A stretch of 64,000 bases of DNA from Modestobacter sp. VKM Ac-2984 (GTDB lineage Bacteria; Actinomycetota; Actinomycetes; Mycobacteriales; Geodermatophilaceae): assembly GCF_026967985.1 (NCBI RefSeq), contig NZ_JAPVBJ010000008.1, positions 1-64,000 on the forward strand, in the 5' to 3' direction. This document shows, piece by piece, positions 10,334 through 64,000 of this stretch (its first letter is position 1; every line of letters begins with the position of its first letter). The notes beneath the pieces were generated by a model. That model did not search any database. It worked only from the letters and a program-made list of their open reading frames with translations, and was not told the origin of the DNA. Position numbers and translations under genes: made by a program.

Positions 10334-10534
10334 GTGGCACAGGGCACCGTGAAGTGGTTCAACGCCGAGAAGGGCTTCGGCTTCATCGCCGTCGACGGCG
10401 GCCAGGACGTCTTCGTCCACTACTCGGCCATCCAGATGGACGGCTACAAGAGCCTCGAAGAGGGCCAGCGGGTCAGCTTCGAGGTCGTCCAGGGCGAGAA
10501 GGGCCCGCAGGCGGACGCGGTGCAGAGCGCCTGA
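10334..10534 (+). CDS. cspA: CspA-family cold-shock protein
   Basis: A 66-residue single cold-shock domain starting [17 protein letters not shown], with RNP1 (KGFGFI) and RNP2 (VFVHYSAI). These bind single-stranded RNA or DNA and act as RNA chaperones at low temperature or in normal growth. GTG 10334 is chosen because the family begins M-A-x-G-T-V-K-W-F and GGGAG lies six nt upstream; a GTG at 10322 would add four residues not seen in the family. It is monocistronic, with a strong hairpin 15 bp after the stop. Confidence 0.93.
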
Positions 10535-10696: not shown

Positions 10697-12430
<1,734 letters not shown>

Positions 12431-34072: not shown

Positions 34073-34456
34073 GTGCCCAGCGGCAAGGTGAAGTGGTTCA
34101 ACCCGGAGAAGGGCTTCGGCTTCCTCGCACACGACGGCGGGCCCGACGTGTTCGTGCACAAGGACGCGCTCCCCGCCGGCACCACCGAGCTCAAGCCCGG
34201 TCAGCGCGTGGAGTTCGGCATCGTCCAGGGCCGCCGGGGGGACCAGGCCCTGCAGGTCCAGGTGCTCGACCCGCTGCCGTCCGCGGTCGCCGGCACCCGC
34301 AAGAAGCCCGACGACCTGGTGCCGATCCTCGAGGACCTGATCAAGCTGCTGGACGACGTCTCGGAGGGCATGCGGCACGGGCGGCACCCCGACAAGCCGA
34401 CGGCTCGCAAGGTCGCCGCGGTGCTCCGCGCCGTCGCCACCGACCTCGACGTCTGA
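34073..34456 (+). CDS. cspB: Cold-shock protein with C-terminal helical extension (CspB/Rv0871-like)
   Basis: A 127-residue protein. Residues 1-66 are a cold-shock domain (SGKVKWFNPEKGFGFLAHDG, DVFVHKDAL, RNP1/RNP2 intact). Residues 67-127 form an extension, RKKPDDLVPILEDLIKLLDDVSEG then RKVAAVLRAVATDLDV, predicted helical and amphipathic. The long form is typical of actinobacterial CspB. The extension might mediate dimerisation or partner binding. GTG 34073 has GAGGG eight nt upstream. It ends at a perfect 22-bp hairpin shared with DUF2771. Confidence 0.9.
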   Translation: MPSGKVKWFNPEKGFGFLAHDGGPDVFVHKDALPAGTTELKPGQRVEFGIVQGRRGDQALQVQVLDPLPSAVAGTRKKPDDLVPILEDLIKLLDDVSEGMRHGRHPDKPTARKVAAVLRAVATDLDV

Positions 34457-56537: not shown

Positions 56538-57539
56538 TCAACGGTTCCGGCGGACCCCGAAGACGATGTCCTCCCAGGCGGGGATGCGGGCGCGCGGGTC
56601 CTCGGTCTCGCCGTCGAGCAAGCTGCCCAGCACCGCGGTGTCCTGGCTGTCGGGGTCGACGGCGTCGTAGGCGCTGCGACGCGGCGGCCCGTCGGCCGGG
56701 TGCTCCTCGCCGGGGAGGGCGACGTCGTCCTCGGGCACCTCGTCGACGGGGAGCGGGTCGACGGGGAGCGGGTCGACGGGGAGCGGGTCCGCGGTGACCG
56801 CCTCCGGCGCCTCGTCGTCCGTCTCGGTGTCCTGCTCGGCGCCGTCGTCACCGGCCGCCTCGACCTCGACGTCCTCCTCGTCGCGGAGCACGGAGATCCC
56901 CCGGCGGGAGACCGGCGCGGCGGGCAGGCCGGCCGGGACGTCGGGGACCACCCGGACCAGCCGGGTGCCCTCGGCGAAGTCCATCGTCGTGGCGTCGACC
57001 GGGGTCACGGTGCGGGCGGGCAGGTCGTAGCTCCAGCGGGTGCTGCCGGACTTGGCGCCGGCCTCCCAGTCCGCCTGCACCTGCCAGGTGCCGTCCTCCG
57101 CGCGATGGGCGTCCCAGCGGACGGCCTCCAGGTCGGCGCCGAGCAGCCGCAGCCGCTCGGACATGAACTGCTCCAGGGGCACGCTGGGGGTGCCCTCGGA
57201 CAGTCGCACCCGGGCGCCGCGGGCCTGCTCGGCCACCCGGGCGCGCTCCTGCAGCACCGGGTGGGCGAAGCGCATGATCCGCTCGACCCGGGTGCCGGAG
57301 GCGTGCGCCACCTGCTCGGGGGTCTCGCCGGCCCGGATCCGGGCCTGGATGACCCGCGGGGGCAGGTCGTGGGCCACCTGGGCCGGGGGCTGGGCCGGGG
57401 CGCCGGCACGCAGCAGCTGCCGCAGCCGGTCGTCCACGGGCAGCTCGAAGCGCTCGTCGTCGGTGGAGTCGGGCGCATCCGCGGCGAGCACCAGGTGCGC
57501 GCCGTCCTCGGAGAGCGCCACGAGGCGCAGTGAGCGCAT
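56538..57539 (-). CDS. sepH: Septation protein SepH (DUF3071)
   Basis: A 333-residue actinobacterial division protein. The N-terminal DUF3071 (RSLRLVALSEDGAHLVLAA...) includes LPPRVIQARIRAGETPEQVAHASGTRVERI, an HTH-like motif, and RVRLSEGTPSVPLEQFMSERL. SepH binds FtsZ and promotes septum assembly. The C-terminal ~110 residues are acidic and disordered, with DPLPV repeated three times, ending RIPAWEDIVFGVRRNR, a conserved tail. ATG 57539 has GGAGG eight nt upstream. A plausible -10 TAGCGT is near 57586. Confidence 0.9.
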   Translation of the reverse strand: MRSLRLVALSEDGAHLVLAADAPDSTDDERFELPVDDRLRQLLRAGAPAQPPAQVAHDLPPRVIQARIRAGETPEQVAHASGTRVERIMRFAHPVLQERARVAEQARGARVRLSEGTPSVPLEQFMSERLRLLGADLEAVRWDAHRAEDGTWQVQADWEAGAKSGSTRWSYDLPARTVTPVDATTMDFAEGTRLVRVVPDVPAGLPAAPVSRRGISVLRDEEDVEVEAAGDDGAEQDTETDDEAPEAVTADPLPVDPLPVDPLPVDEVPEDDVALPGEEHPADGPPRRSAYDAVDPDSQDTAVLGSLLDGETEDPRARIPAWEDIVFGVRRNR

Positions 57540-57827: not shown

Positions 57828-59612
57828 GTGTGCGGCATCTCGGGTGAGGTCCGGTTCGACGGCGGGGTCGCCGACATGGCGGCGGTCAGCGCCATGTGCG
57901 ACCAGTTGCAGCGGCGGGGGCCGGACGGCTCCGGCGGCTGGCAGGCCGGGCCGGTCGCGCTCGGGCACCGGCGCCTGAAGATCATCGACCTGACCGACGC
58001 CGGCGCCCAGCCGATGGTCGACGCGGAGCTCGGGCTGACGATGGTCTTCAACGGGATCATCTACAACTACAAGGAGCTGCGCGCCGAGCTGCAGGGCGCC
58101 GGCTACCGCTTCTTCTCCACCTCCGACACCGAGGTGGTGCTCAAGGCCTATCACCGGTGGGGTGCGGCCTGCGTCGAGCGGTTCCTGGGGATGTTCGCCT
58201 TCGCGGTCGTTGAGCGGGACTCCGGCCGGGTGGTCCTGGCCCGCGACCGCTTCGGGATCAAGCCGCTGTACCTCAGCCGCGGGCCGGGCCGGGTGCGGTT
58301 CGCCTCCTCGCTGCCCGCGCTGGTGCGCGCCGGGGGCGTGGACACCAGCATCGACCCGGTCGCGCTGCACCACTACATGTCCTTCCACGCCGTCGTCCCG
58401 GCGCCGCGGACGATCCTGGCCGGCGTGGGCAAGCTGCCGCCGGCCACGGTGCGCACCTACGAGGCCGACGGCCGGGAGTCCGACTGGGAGTACTGGCGCC
58501 CGGTGCACGAGCGGCGGGCCGAGTTCGCCGGCCTCGATGCGGTCGAGTGGCAGGAGCGGGTGCTGGAGCAGCTGCGCGTGGCGGTGCGCCGGCGGATGGT
58601 CGCCGACGTCCCGGTGGGCGTGCTGCTGTCCGGGGGCATCGACTCCAGTCTCGTCGTCGGCCTGCTGGCCGAGGAGGGGCAGAAGGGCCTGGCCACGTTC
58701 TCCATCGGCTTCGAGGCCGTGGGCGAGCGGTCCGGTGACGAGTTCGCGTACTCCGACGTGGTCGCCGAGACCTTCGGCACCGACCACCACCGGCTGATGG
58801 TGCCCAGCGCCGACGTGCACGCCGGCCTGGACGGTGCGGTCGCGGCGATGAGCGAGCCGCAGGTCAGCCACGACGCGGTCGCCTTCTACCTGCTCTCCCA
58901 GCAGGTCAGCCAGCACGTCAAGGTGGTGCAGAGCGGCCAGGGTGCCGACGAGGTGATGGCCGGTTACGACTGGTACCCGCCGCTGGACGGCGTCCCGGCT
59001 GAGGCGGCCGTCGACGCCTACGCGCGGGTCTTCGTCGACCGGCCGCACGCCGAGCTGGCCACCCAGCTCGGCGAGCGCTGGATGGTGACCGACGACGTCA
59101 GCCGGGCCCTGATCGCCGAGCACTTCGCCCGGCCGGGTGCGGAGACCACGCTGGACAAGGCGCTGCGGCTGGACTCGACGATCATGCTGGTCGACGACCC
59201 GGTCAAGCGGGTCGACAACATGACGATGGCCTGGGGCCTGGAGGCCCGCGTGCCGTTCCTGGACCACGAGTTCGTGGAGCTGGCCGCCGCCGTCCCGCCG
59301 GAGCTCAAGCTGGCCCACGGTGGGAAGGGCGTGCTCAAGGACGCCGCCCGCGCGGTCATCCCCGCCGACGTGATCGACCGGCCCAAGGGCTACTTCCCGG
59401 TGCCGGCGATCACCGACCTGCACGGTGACTACCTGGAGACGGTGCGCGCGGCGCTGCACGCACCGGAGGCCCGGGAACGCGGCCTGTTCCGCACCGACTA
59501 CGTGGCACGGCTGCTCGCCGACCCGAACAGCCACCGCACCACGCTGGGCGCCAACCAGCTGTGGCAGGTCGGGCTGCTGGAGCTGTGGCTGCAGCGGCAC
59601 GGCATCCGCTGA
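57828..59612 (+). CDS. AsnB-type glutamine amidotransferase (N-acetylglutaminylglutamine amidotransferase-like)
   Basis: A 594-residue class II glutamine amidotransferase. The nucleophile Cys is residue 2 (VCGISGEVRF), exposed by Met removal, so GTG 57828 is certain; GGGGAGG is about eight nt upstream. RRGPDGSG, MVFNGIIYNYKELR and RDRFGIKPLY complete the glutaminase. The synthetase half has the PP-loop LLSGGIDSSLVVG (about residue 267), QGADEVMAGYDWY, RVDNMTMAWGLEARVPFLDHE. The length and the QGADEVMAGYDWYPP block fit the N-acetylglutaminylglutamine amidotransferase subfamily. The ATP-grasp partner usual for that dipeptide (GNAT-ATP-grasp) is absent, and a different ligase is two genes downstream. 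Confidence 0.87.
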   Translation: MCGISGEVRFDGGVADMAAVSAMCDQLQRRGPDGSGGWQAGPVALGHRRLKIIDLTDAGAQPMVDAELGLTMVFNGIIYNYKELRAELQGAGYRFFSTSDTEVVLKAYHRWGAACVERFLGMFAFAVVERDSGRVVLARDRFGIKPLYLSRGPGRVRFASSLPALVRAGGVDTSIDPVALHHYMSFHAVVPAPRTILAGVGKLPPATVRTYEADGRESDWEYWRPVHERRAEFAGLDAVEWQERVLEQLRVAVRRRMVADVPVGVLLSGGIDSSLVVGLLAEEGQKGLATFSIGFEAVGERSGDEFAYSDVVAETFGTDHHRLMVPSADVHAGLDGAVAAMSEPQVSHDAVAFYLLSQQVSQHVKVVQSGQGADEVMAGYDWYPPLDGVPAEAAVDAYARVFVDRPHAELATQLGERWMVTDDVSRALIAEHFARPGAETTLDKALRLDSTIMLVDDPVKRVDNMTMAWGLEARVPFLDHEFVELAAAVPPELKLAHGGKGVLKDAARAVIPADVIDRPKGYFPVPAITDLHGDYLETVRAALHAPEARERGLFRTDYVARLLADPNSHRTTLGANQLWQVGLLELWLQRHGIR

Positions 59613-59750
59613 CCTGAGGTGGCCGCGCTCACGGCGCGGCGTGGAACAGCACCACGGGGGCATCTGCTGCACTCGGGGACGACGGACGGCGTGGTCCCGG
59701 CGACGTGACCCCGCCGCGCCGACCCACCGATCCCCGACCGAGGAGGTGCC

Positions 59751-61607
59751 ATGACCGACGTGCTGCGCGAGGCGGGGCTCCCCACGGAGGTCCGCCTCGC
59801 CGTCGCCGAGATCGCCGGCGTGTCAGGCGCCTGGTGCCCCAGCCTGGCGCCGACGGGGGATCGGGTGGCCTACGTCAGCGACCGCTCCGGCGTCCCCCGG
59901 CTGGAGGTCGCGGCACTGGACCAGCACACCCCGCCCGCCGTGCTGTCCGGTGCCGAGGAGGAGGTCGTCTCGGTCGCGTGGTCGCCGGACGGCGAGTGGC
60001 TGGCCTACCTGGTGAGCCCCGGCGGCTCCATCTGTGCGCAGCTGTGGGCCGTGCGGCCCGACGGCACCGACCGGCACCTGGTGGCCGGGCAGGACCCACG
60101 CGCCACCGTGTTCGCCGGCGGGTGGACCGCAGGCGGCCACTACGTCTGCTCGATCGCCCCCGGTGACGGCCCGGGCGCCGACGTCGTCCTGGTCGACGTG
60201 GTCAGCGGCGCCCACCGCACCCTGGCCACCGGCGGCTTCCTCGCCGTCACCGCGGTCTCCGCGGACGAGCGGACGGTGCTGGCCCGGCGGGGTCCGCGCG
60301 GGCACCGGCACATCGTGCTGGTCGACGTCGCCACCGGCGTCCAGCGGCGGGTCATCCCGCTCACCGACCCCGGCGGCGGCGCTTCCGAGGACGGCCGGTT
60401 CGCCCCGGACGGCTCGGCGGTCTTCCTCCGCGCCGCCCTCCCGGCGCGGCCCGGGCTGCCGCGCAGCGACCGCACGGGGCTGGTGCGCGTCCCGCTGGAC
60501 GCCGATCGGCAGCCGGGCCCGGCCCAGGTGCTCCTCGCCCGCCCCGACGCGGACCTGGACTCCTACGCCGTGCGCGCCGACGGCACGGTGCTGTGCGTCT
60601 GGAACGCCGACGGGAGCACCGAGCTGGAGCTGCGGGACCTCACCGACGGCGGCCGGCTGCGTGCCGTGGCGCTGCCGCACCCGGTCATGCCCGGCTGGTC
60701 GCTCTCGGCCGACGGCGGGACGCTGCTCGCCGAGCTGACCGGCCCCACCTCCCCCCGGTCGCTGTGGTCGGTCCCGCTGGACGTCGACGGGGAGCCGGTG
60801 CCGCTGCCCAGCACGCCCCGCCACCCCGACCTGCGCCTGCTGGTCACGCCGGTCCGGCTGCGCTACGCGGCCGCCGACGGCACCGAGCTGGACGGCTGGC
60901 TCTACACCCCGCCGGGGCTGACCGGCCCCAACCGCACGGTGGTGAGCTTCCACGGTGGCCCGGAGGGGCAGGAGCGCCCGGACTACCACCCGGTGGCGCA
61001 GTCGCTGGTCGCGGTGGGGCTGACCGTCTTCGCGCCGAACGTGCGCGGTTCGGGCGGGTACGGCCGGGCCTTCATGGCCGCCGACGACCTGGGTGCACGG
61101 GAGGAGTCGTTCACCGACGTCGTCGCCACCGTCGAGCACCTGGTGGCCGAGGGGATCGCGCTGCCCGGCCGGGTCGGTGCGCACGGCTGGTCCTACGGCG
61201 GTTACCTGACGCTGGTGGCGCTCACCCGCTGGCCGGACCTGTTCGCCGCCGGCGCGACGCTGGCCGGGATGAGCGACCTGCGCACCTTCTTCGCCGGCAC
61301 CGAACCGTGGATGGCGGCGGCCTCGGTCACCGAGTACGGCGACCCGGTGACCGACCGGGACATGCTGGCCGCGATCTCCCCGATGACCGCGCTGGCCCGG
61401 CTCCGGTCCCCGGTGCTGCTCACCCACGGCGACCGGGACACCAACGTGCCGGTGCTGGAGTCGATCCAGGCGCACCAGGAGCTGACCGCCCTCGGCGCCC
61501 CGGTCGAGCTCCTCCTCCTGCGGGGTGAGGGTCACACGATCGTGGGACGGGAGAACCTGCTGCACCTGTCGGAGCGGGTCGCGGAGTGGTTCGATCGCTG
61601 GCTGTGA
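59751..61607 (+). CDS. S9-family prolyl oligopeptidase
   Basis: A 618-residue cytosolic peptidase. The first ~370 residues form a beta-propeller of WSPDG-type blades (VAWSPDGEWLAYLV and others), and the C-terminus is an alpha/beta hydrolase: VVSFHGGPEGQ, nucleophile elbow GWSYGGYLTL, Asp in LTHGDRDTNVP and His in GEGHTIV. It cleaves short peptides, like acylaminoacyl or dipeptidyl peptidases. ATG 59751 has GAGGAGG seven nt upstream. It lies between the amidotransferase and the ATP-grasp, which suggests it trims or recycles the peptide they build. Confidence 0.9.
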   Translation: MTDVLREAGLPTEVRLAVAEIAGVSGAWCPSLAPTGDRVAYVSDRSGVPRLEVAALDQHTPPAVLSGAEEEVVSVAWSPDGEWLAYLVSPGGSICAQLWAVRPDGTDRHLVAGQDPRATVFAGGWTAGGHYVCSIAPGDGPGADVVLVDVVSGAHRTLATGGFLAVTAVSADERTVLARRGPRGHRHIVLVDVATGVQRRVIPLTDPGGGASEDGRFAPDGSAVFLRAALPARPGLPRSDRTGLVRVPLDADRQPGPAQVLLARPDADLDSYAVRADGTVLCVWNADGSTELELRDLTDGGRLRAVALPHPVMPGWSLSADGGTLLAELTGPTSPRSLWSVPLDVDGEPVPLPSTPRHPDLRLLVTPVRLRYAAADGTELDGWLYTPPGLTGPNRTVVSFHGGPEGQERPDYHPVAQSLVAVGLTVFAPNVRGSGGYGRAFMAADDLGAREESFTDVVATVEHLVAEGIALPGRVGAHGWSYGGYLTLVALTRWPDLFAAGATLAGMSDLRTFFAGTEPWMAAASVTEYGDPVTDRDMLAAISPMTALARLRSPVLLTHGDRDTNVPVLESIQAHQELTALGAPVELLLLRGEGHTIVGRENLLHLSERVAEWFDRWL

Positions 61608-61614
61608 GCCCGCG

Positions 61615-63087
61615 ATGACCGACGCCTCCGGCGTCTTCGCGCCCTACCCCGGCTCGGCACGCGACGAGGCGGTGGGCGCAGCAGGCTCGCTCCGGCCGGC
61701 CTACCGGCCCGTGCTGCAGGTGCTCGACGGGCTCGGCCCCGGCGGGATCGGCGCGCTCGTCGACGCGGTGGCCCGGGAGCGCCGGGACCGCGGTGTGGTG
61801 GTCGGCGGCCACGTCGACGGCCGGTTGCAGGAGCGGCCGCTCCCGCTGTGCCCGGTGCCCCGCCTGCTCTCGGCCGCCGACTGGTCCTCCGTCGCCCGCG
61901 GCGCCGAGCAGCGGCACCGGGCGCTGAACGCCTTCCTCGCCGACGTCTACCGCCCGGCCGGGCGGCGGCGCACCGACCCCGACCGGCATGCCGAGGTGGT
62001 CCGTGCCGGCGTCGTGCCGGCGTGGGTGGTCGCCGCCAGCCCGGGGCTCCGCGCCTCGGCGGCCGGCCTGGCCGTGCCCGGCCAGTCGCGGGCCACCGTC
62101 TCCGGCCTGGACCTGCGGCACGGCCCCGGGGGGTGGGTGGCGGTCGCGGACGACACGTCGACGCCCTCGGGCATCGGCCACGCGATCAGCGACCGGGTCA
62201 GCGGCCGGGCCGCGCTGCCGGAGCTGCACGCCGCGGCGGAGGTCGCGGGGCTCACCGACCCGGGCGAGGCGGTGTCGCTGCTGCACGCCGCGCTGGCCGA
62301 GGCCGCCCCGCCGGCCTGCACCGGGACCCCACAGCTGGCCCTGCTCTCCGAGGGGCCGCACAGCAGCAGCTGGTTCGAGCACCGGTTGCTGGCCGCGGCG
62401 ATGGACGTCCCGATCGCCACACCGGACACCCTCTGGCCGGCTCGCGGTGGGGGAGTGGCGGTCCAGGTGGGCGGGCAGCGGCTGCGGGTCGACGTCCTCC
62501 ACCGTCAGCTGGACGAGGCCGGGCTGGCCGCGCACCTCACCCCCAGCGGCGCGCCGCTGGACGCGCTGCTCGGCGCCGCGGTGCGGGCCGGGGAGCTGGC
62601 GCTGGCGAACGTCCCCGGCAACGGCGTGGCCGACGGCGAGGCCACCTACCGGTACCTGCCGGAGCTGATCCGGTTCTACCTCGGCGAGGAGCCGGTGCTG
62701 GACACCGTGCGCACCTGGCTGCTGGCCGACGACGCCGACCTCGCGGAGGTGCGCGACCGGCTGCACGAGCTGGTCGTGCGGCCGGTCGACGGGTACGGCG
62801 GTTTCGGGGTGGTGGTCGGGCCACGCTGCTCGGCGGCCGAGCTCGCCGAGCTGCAGGCGGAGGTGGCGGCCACCCCGCACCGCTTCATCGCCCAGGAGCC
62901 GGTCGACGGCTCCACGGTGCCCACCGTCGTCGACGGGGCGCTGGTGCCGCGGGCCGCCGGGCTGCGGGTGTTCACCGTCGCCGGTGCCACCACCCGGGCA
63001 CTGCCCGCGCCGTGGACCCGGATGGCCCTGGCCGACGGATCAGCCGTGCTGGACGGCAGCAGCAAGGACACCTGGCTGCTGCCCTGA
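61615..63087 (+). CDS. Circularly permuted ATP-grasp peptide ligase (COG2308 / CP_ATPgrasp_2)
   Basis: A 490-residue ligase. HSSSWFEHRLLAAAMDVPIA, QRLRVDVLHRQLDE, ANVPGNGVADGEATYRYLPELIRFYLGEEPVL, LHELVVRPVDGYGGFGVVVGP and FIAQEPVDGSTVPTVVDGALVPR are the ordered motifs of circularly permuted ATP-grasp amidoligases. These enzymes form amide or peptide bonds using ATP. The usual neighbours, an alpha-E (COG2307) gene and a transglutaminase, are missing; instead an AsnB and a peptidase are present. ATG 61615 is 7 bp after the peptidase stop. Confidence 0.88.
   Translation: MTDASGVFAPYPGSARDEAVGAAGSLRPAYRPVLQVLDGLGPGGIGALVDAVARERRDRGVVVGGHVDGRLQERPLPLCPVPRLLSAADWSSVARGAEQRHRALNAFLADVYRPAGRRRTDPDRHAEVVRAGVVPAWVVAASPGLRASAAGLAVPGQSRATVSGLDLRHGPGGWVAVADDTSTPSGIGHAISDRVSGRAALPELHAAAEVAGLTDPGEAVSLLHAALAEAAPPACTGTPQLALLSEGPHSSSWFEHRLLAAAMDVPIATPDTLWPARGGGVAVQVGGQRLRVDVLHRQLDEAGLAAHLTPSGAPLDALLGAAVRAGELALANVPGNGVADGEATYRYLPELIRFYLGEEPVLDTVRTWLLADDADLAEVRDRLHELVVRPVDGYGGFGVVVGPRCSAAELAELQAEVAATPHRFIAQEPVDGSTVPTVVDGALVPRAAGLRVFTVAGATTRALPAPWTRMALADGSAVLDGSSKDTWLLP

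Positions 63088-63138: not shown

Positions 63139-64000
<862 letters not shown>

Follow-up and report, generated by a model that had tools for sequence, protein, structure and literature searches.

A cluster of three genes that joins an amidotransferase gene to the gene of an apparently degenerate ATP-grasp protein was analyzed in a 64,000-nucleotide stretch of DNA from Modestobacter sp. VKM Ac-2984 (contig NZ_JAPVBJ010000008.1, positions 1 to 64,000; hereafter the window). On the plus strand it comprises asnO, for a predicted N-acetylglutaminylglutamine (NAGGN) amidotransferase, a gene for an S9 prolyl-oligopeptidase-family peptidase, and a gene for a circularly permuted (CP) ATP-grasp protein of the COG2308 type. 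Sequence comparisons suggest, with a probability of roughly 0.7, that in many Actinomycetota the CP ATP-grasp acts as a non-orthologous stand-in for the GNAT-ATP-grasp synthetase Ngg, and that in this genome it was displaced by Ngg, with AsnO serving Ngg in trans.

The locus would thus be the remnant of a variant NAGGN-type pathway. In its ancestral form, represented by Ngg-lacking relatives, the CP ATP-grasp, a putative glutathione-synthetase-like peptide ligase, would join two amino acids, AsnO would use glutamine to amidate the peptide at its C-terminal carboxylate, and the amidated product would be recycled or degraded by the S9 peptidase. In the window genome, Ngg would have displaced the CP ligase, which decayed in place into a pseudoenzyme, and the sole AsnO, under strong constraint, most likely amidates the Ngg product in trans. 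The CP ligase would have made the same peptide as Ngg or an equivalent one.

Active-site loss in the ATP-grasp protein and identity of its neighbors

The CP ATP-grasp gene (61615 to 63087, plus strand, 490 aa) matches PF14403 with 322.4 bits (cut-off 32). The original prediction of an intact COG2308-type ligase stood as to the family and the open frame and failed as to intactness, only one of seven core active-site residues being retained. The motifs of intact relatives in the alignment are EDN, DDK, KPxxG, PRHVDLR (variable at the first two positions of HVD) and VNSSxGGG. The window protein has ADD for EDN (residues 178 to 180, 62146 to 62154), DGE for DDK (GE at residues 341 and 342, 62635 to 62640), RPVDG with Arg at the KPxxG lysine (residue 389, 62779 to 62781), PRAAGLR with AAG at the HVD site (residues 447 to 449, 62953 to 62961), and a shortened LDGSS. 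The replacements thus affect the E and N of EDN, the lysines of DDK and KPxxG, and both HVD and VNSS; loops were also lost relative to the intact relatives. We take the E and N of EDN to be metal ligands and the lysines to be ATP-binding residues, as in glutathione synthetase and glutathionylspermidine synthetase, so that the presumed ATP- and metal-binding residues are missing. These labels rest on what is known of those two enzymes and on the fold match, because residue mapping reached only 3n6x, the sole PDB sequence relative of the protein and the only structure to come up in a sequence search for a glutathionylspermidine synthetase to map onto.

The predicted model of the window protein has a confident fold (mean pLDDT 86.9), and a Foldseek search with it matched 3n6x and glutathione synthetases (E about 1e-17 to 1e-9). 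The circularly permuted ATP-grasp fold is thus shared with eukaryotic-type glutathione synthetase and glutathionylspermidine synthetase at about 10 to 13% identity. Judged by its residues, the window CP ATP-grasp is a pseudoenzyme whose active site was lost in this branch of the genus; its nearest named relatives, in Modestobacter strains, are 95% identical across the gene. For annotation, this is a warning that a dead enzyme may hide behind an uninterrupted frame and a strong family score.

The CP tree places the window protein among the AsnO-linked ATP-grasps and away from those linked to alpha-E proteins, a placement to be read with care because of long branches. It was the reason for rejecting the protein as a stray alpha-E copy. 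The second PF14403 gene of the genome is motif-intact and is followed by alpha-E and transglutaminase genes (contig C19, L013:8082-11580), neither of which had a match at the window locus. The proposal that the locus combines one component of each of two known systems proved too simple, given this separate operon and the tree placement.

The asnO gene (57828 to 59612, plus strand, GTG start) encodes a glutamine-hydrolyzing protein of 594 aa with the AsnB fold, including the expected Cys2 glutaminase motif VCGISG and the PP-loop SGGIDSS. It scored 978.6 bits against TIGR03104, the NAGGN amidotransferase model (cut-off 570.1), and also passed the asparagine synthase model TIGR01536 (417.5 bits, cut-off 267.1). 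A profile search of its own genome returned a single TIGR03104 match at E up to 1e-150. In the AsnO tree, it falls among AsnO proteins, at a long distance from another AsnB encoded in the same genome; this one AsnB served as the outgroup on a very long branch, so that the root position is unsure. By score and tree, the protein is AsnO, an amidotransferase of the NAGGN type. Its alternative identity as an asparagine synthetase was rejected, and the grouping with asparagine synthetases that would have spoken against the original prediction was not seen in the tree. The likelier asparagine synthetase of the genome is encoded on contig C1 (L014:6643-8577, Pfam match only). Within the tree, CP-linked AsnO proteins of Geodermatophilaceae and of family f4 form one clade (support 99), those linked to CP proteins with a GCS2 ligase fall mostly into another, and Ngg-linked ones do not form a single clade.

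The S9 peptidase gene (59751 to 61607, plus strand, 618 aa, PF00326 156.6 bits) encodes the intact prolyl oligopeptidase foreseen for it, with the triad Ser481/Asp563/His595. All 75 aligned rows, a few of which are S9 genes of GCS2-CP clusters (some in family f13), retain this triad. The enzyme likely turns over the pathway product.

As predicted, the three coding regions are separated by 138 bp (asnO and S9) and 7 bp (S9 and CP ATP-grasp). They lie between the divergent sepH (56538 to 57539, minus strand; NF040712 on 56538 to 57482), which is conserved in relatives, and the convergent serC for phosphoserine transaminase (63139 to 63999, minus strand, TIGR01366 461.3 bits), which leaves the window and is conserved where the relatives' stretch extends far enough. 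The order sepH-asnO-S9-CP ATP-grasp-serC was found in three Geodermatophilaceae genera (g1, g3 and g5). The cluster is thus kept together in other genomes, and its conserved order and linkage argue against a chance grouping.

State of the CP gene and presence of Ngg in Geodermatophilaceae

The window genome (4.56 Mb, 21 contigs, 100% complete) encodes Ngg on contig C12 (TIGR03103, 800 bits, cut-off 569), with GNAT and ATP-grasp domains. The gene lies in the order ngg-crcB-crcB-otsA-otsB, with a trehalose-phosphate-synthase-type glycosyltransferase and a trehalose phosphatase, away from asnO (contig C20); the ngg cluster holds no asnO. Of the three findings named in advance as speaking against the original prediction, a GNAT-ATP-grasp synthetase elsewhere in the genome was the only one obtained. 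No M42 peptidase match was found at the window locus or in the L012 stretch around ngg, the search being confined to these two regions of the genome.

Among 112 Geodermatophilaceae genomes, Ngg was detected in 78, PF14403 in 94 and AsnO in 96. The CP gene of the sepH-serC locus was scored in 72 of them, the window included, and was called broken with fewer than seven of the seven core residues. G163 lies outside the scored set and G175 is represented by its alpha-E copy only; G178 lacks the C-terminal positions at a contig end, with three replaced residues preceding that end; and G231, whose asnO is on another contig (L118), was placed by hand with the loci that carry asnO. All 19 genomes without Ngg and with AsnO at the locus have an intact CP gene. 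Of the 48 genomes with Ngg, 46 have a broken one (8 with AsnO at the locus and 38 without). The CP gene was also broken in three of the four genomes with neither Ngg nor AsnO at the locus, the intact one (G232) being on a 3.6-kb contig that could hide asnO; in the one remaining genome (G218), the CP locus is cut by a contig end. The CP gene thus stays intact where AsnO adjoins it and Ngg is missing, a loss pattern which suggests that CP and Ngg fill one role.

Eight genomes of the genus, the window genome among them, carry Ngg with no asnO beside it (8/8), a broken CP gene, and their only AsnO at the CP locus. Since this CP-clade AsnO is the only AsnO where Ngg is the only intact ligase of the two, it may well accept the Ngg product. 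In the 38 other Ngg-bearing genomes with a broken CP gene, AsnO adjoins Ngg (adjacency judged by eye from coordinates, here and in the order sample below); four of these (G173, G174, G176 and G180) have a second AsnO in a GCS2-CP cluster. The S9 peptidase is perhaps the turnover enzyme of both pathway versions in this family, because no M42 match was found beside ngg in 20 ngg loci of the family.

Replacements of the core residues differ between branches, and the eight AsnO-linked dead CP rows of Modestobacter cluster together (supports 87 and 94, CP and AsnO trees). From these differences and groupings, at least three breakages are counted in Ngg-bearing lines, namely, in the eight Modestobacter genomes, in G223 and on the Blastococcus side; those in G229 and G236 are counted as breakages in lines with neither Ngg nor AsnO. 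At the G236 locus (L112), asnO and the S9 gene are gone from between sepH and serC, two of seven CP core residues are changed, and the genome has no TIGR03104 or TIGR03103 match; on these sequences, it is an instance of CP decay upon the loss of AsnO. In 14 pairs picked by hand, dN/dS of asnO was 0.09 to 0.17 and that of the CP gene 0.20 to 0.58 in the seven pairs with dead CP, and CP values were 0.22 to 0.33 in live pairs.

Two further features of the locus in relatives were noted. In L152 (G180), the S9 gene appears as two separate matches and may be broken or affected by a sequencing error. A large hybrid sensor kinase/response regulator gene (L086:10406-13090) lies between the CP gene and serC, and frames of similar size and place occur in L087 to L089.

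Ligase partners of AsnO across Actinomycetota

In an order sample of 150 genomes, AsnO was found in 68 and Ngg in 44, with both in 43 and AsnO without Ngg in 25. A CP ATP-grasp gene is present in the AsnO cluster of 22 of these 25; G038 and G132 have a GCS2 gene near AsnO, and G081 has none of these. At the latter locus (L072), AsnO has a distant S9 neighbor and no match to Ngg, CP or GCS2 beside it. Of the 43 genomes with both, AsnO and Ngg are neighbors in 39, and the remaining four belong to the genus of the window (G000, G039, G048 and G092). Actinomycetota with a named AsnO can thus lack the known synthetase (25 of the 68), and the CP ATP-grasp is the likely missing ligase.

The CP ligase of several families is either fused with a GCS2 (YbdK-like) ligase (PF04107) or encoded next to one, as in four Actinoplanes with the order GCS2-CP-AsnO-S9, in one of which (L194) AsnO appears as two matches. 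No GCS2 was found beside CP at the sepH-serC locus of Geodermatophilaceae or in six of nine f4 loci. AsnO adjoins GCS2 without CP in L066, L067, L068 and L074 (f16), and in G028 and G077 the GCS2-linked AsnO is a second one besides an AsnO-Ngg pair.

A sample of 396 Actinomycetota contained AsnO in 46 genomes, of which 33 gave new regions, 11 were already in the order sample and two (G576 and G609) were left out. The 33 regions comprise 22 with Ngg, six with a CP ATP-grasp (three of them with GCS2 and S9) and five with GCS2 and no CP (four with S9); Ngg together with another of these ligases occurred in none of the 33. The twelve positions inspected are all readable in five of the six CP genes, which have the core residues, and only partly so in that of L295. 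In the stand-alone GCS2 loci (L280 to L283 of f18 and L308 of f56), neither CP ATP-grasp nor Ngg lies beside AsnO, and the four f18 loci include S9; such a GCS2 may represent a third type of ligase. An M42 gene comes after ngg in a number of other families, and in L301:8761-10424 (G514) the Ngg match next to AsnO is split over two frames, either truly or through a sequencing error.

A GNAT domain next to CP in other families was considered and rejected, no GNAT being found in ten hand-picked neighbor proteins (eight from CP-AsnO loci; the two from L086 and L074 are not from such loci). Among the ten, L051:4081-5064 is an acyltransferase of the lipid-A type.

It is somewhat more likely than not that AsnO forms the constant part of a modular pathway to amidated-peptide osmolytes in which the ligase is exchangeable, being Ngg, a CP ATP-grasp with or without GCS2, or GCS2 alone. 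Geodermatophilaceae would then present the case of one ligase displacing another, the displaced one decaying in place and its AsnO being rewired to the newcomer.

Weighing of the explanations and relation to known systems

Several observations weigh against displacement of an equivalent ligase by Ngg. Two Ngg-bearing genomes keep an intact CP gene, namely, G233 (80% complete, 3% contamination) and G202 (610 contigs, 3% contamination, no AsnO at the locus). Completeness is low in two of the 19 Ngg-lacking genomes (70% in G230 and 67% in G231), where Ngg may have escaped detection. On the S9 tree (67 rows, leaving out G229 and G180 with a short S9, G236 and G169 without an S9 match, and G218), the independent pairs test gave three concordant pairs, none opposite and two ties, with a median p of 0.25; with so few independent pairs, the proportion of 46 in 48 rests on few events. 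The CP dN/dS remains below 1, so the dead protein may still have a role. The identity of the two products is called into question by GCS2 in the fused forms and by the neighbors scanned for GNAT, which leave an N-acetyl product of CP unexplained. Eight Ngg-bearing family genomes, moreover, carry an intact GCS2-CP-AsnO cluster besides AsnO-Ngg (L159 to L166), so that the GCS2-CP form is no plain duplicate of Ngg and may have a product of its own. Because of these eight genomes, the idea that the Ngg and CP systems strictly exclude each other in a genome was rejected.

The alternative that survives best, tentative and short of an even chance, is that the CP product is chemically distinct from that of Ngg, for example a gamma-glutamyl peptide amide, with the two solutes physiologically interchangeable and AsnO promiscuous. 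It would account for the several families in which CP is fused with or adjacent to GCS2, for the eight Ngg-bearing genomes that retain both systems, for the ten neighbors free of GNAT and for the predicted fold close to glutathione synthetase. It agrees less well with the lack of GCS2 beside CP at the sepH-serC locus and in most f4 loci, and with the CP-clade AsnO as the sole AsnO of the eight Ngg-bearing genus genomes, which points to a shared acceptor.

That the broken CP is a pseudoenzyme maintained to regulate or scaffold the S9 peptidase seems rather unlikely, even though an S9 match lies beside CP in 37 of the 38 Ngg-bearing loci with a broken CP and no AsnO, the S9 triad is invariant, and the confident predicted fold and a dN/dS below 1 fit such a role. 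CP dN/dS of 0.40 to 0.58 in four of the seven dead pairs, together with the lost loops, looks like slow decay, and in G169 and G236 the CP gene persists without an S9 match.

It is improbable that the anticorrelation reflects shared descent only, with one or two decay events of CP that had nothing to do with Ngg and a CP-AsnO linkage that belongs to an unrelated pathway. The nonsignificant pairs test and the single clade of the AsnO-linked dead Modestobacter rows would be expected under it; the additional breakages in G223 and others on the Blastococcus side, where other residues took the place of the core ones, and the clustering of AsnO in distant families with a single type of ligase per region would not. 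Most improbable of all is a working pathway of the three window genes, in which CP makes a peptide that AsnO amidates and S9 recycles, as the conserved order, close spacing, open CP frame and dN/dS below 1 might suggest, given that both lysines and both EDN residues are replaced in CP and Ngg is present elsewhere in the genome. The prediction of an osmoprotectant made by ATP-grasp, AsnO and peptidase together is sound for relatives with an intact ligase and fails for the window genome, where the ATP-grasp lacks catalytic residues.

Displacement by Ngg goes beyond the first proposal in pointing to a second kind of peptide ligase that would serve the AsnO pathway of Actinomycetota, and to a genus in which Ngg would have displaced it. 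The asnO-ngg pathway for NAGGN was reportedly described by Sagot and coworkers in 2010 and corresponds to TIGR03104 and TIGR03103. Common to it and the window genome are an AsnO-family enzyme, a clustered peptidase gene, a peptide ligase accompanying AsnO, and Ngg itself. In contrast to the classical arrangement, asnO is not beside ngg, its neighbor is a CP ATP-grasp that has no GNAT domain and is dead, and S9 takes the place of the M42 peptidase.

Among actinobacteria, Micromonospora MT25 makes NAGGN, as identified by nuclear magnetic resonance, and its asnO and ngg were predicted (PMC8146288). In Frankia from Casuarina, a dipeptidase gene lies between asnO and a "putative Ngg" with less than 15% identity to known Ngg, the same gene order as in the window; the accessible part of this description treats the ligase as Ngg and names no circularly permuted ATP-grasp (PMC5563000). 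From these published features, the Frankia protein is probably an unrecognized CP variant. In an open library, no literature was found that links an ATP-grasp or carboxylate-amine ligase with acetylglutaminylglutamine, and the portions seen of the literature on NAGGN and Geodermatophilaceae gave no description of the CP variant.

The other relevant system, an Anbu-type peptide system of COG2308, alpha-E and transglutaminase, is said to go back to Iyer and coworkers in 2009. To our knowledge, the function of the COG2308 CP ATP-grasp family is still open, and the present comparison assigns a probable substrate class to one of its branches. The system, which is described in two papers (PMC5666114 and PMC3597751), has the same CP ATP-grasp Pfam family, and the window genome holds an intact copy of it elsewhere; the window locus differs in having neither partner gene and in its protein falling on the AsnO-linked branch. 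Geodermatophilaceae offer a natural genome series for non-orthologous enzyme displacement with rewiring of the downstream enzyme.

Outside the cluster, the window contains a GroEL-type chaperonin gene (10799 to 12430, PF00118) and two frames that resemble cold-shock proteins by eye (10334 to 10534 and 34073 to 34456).

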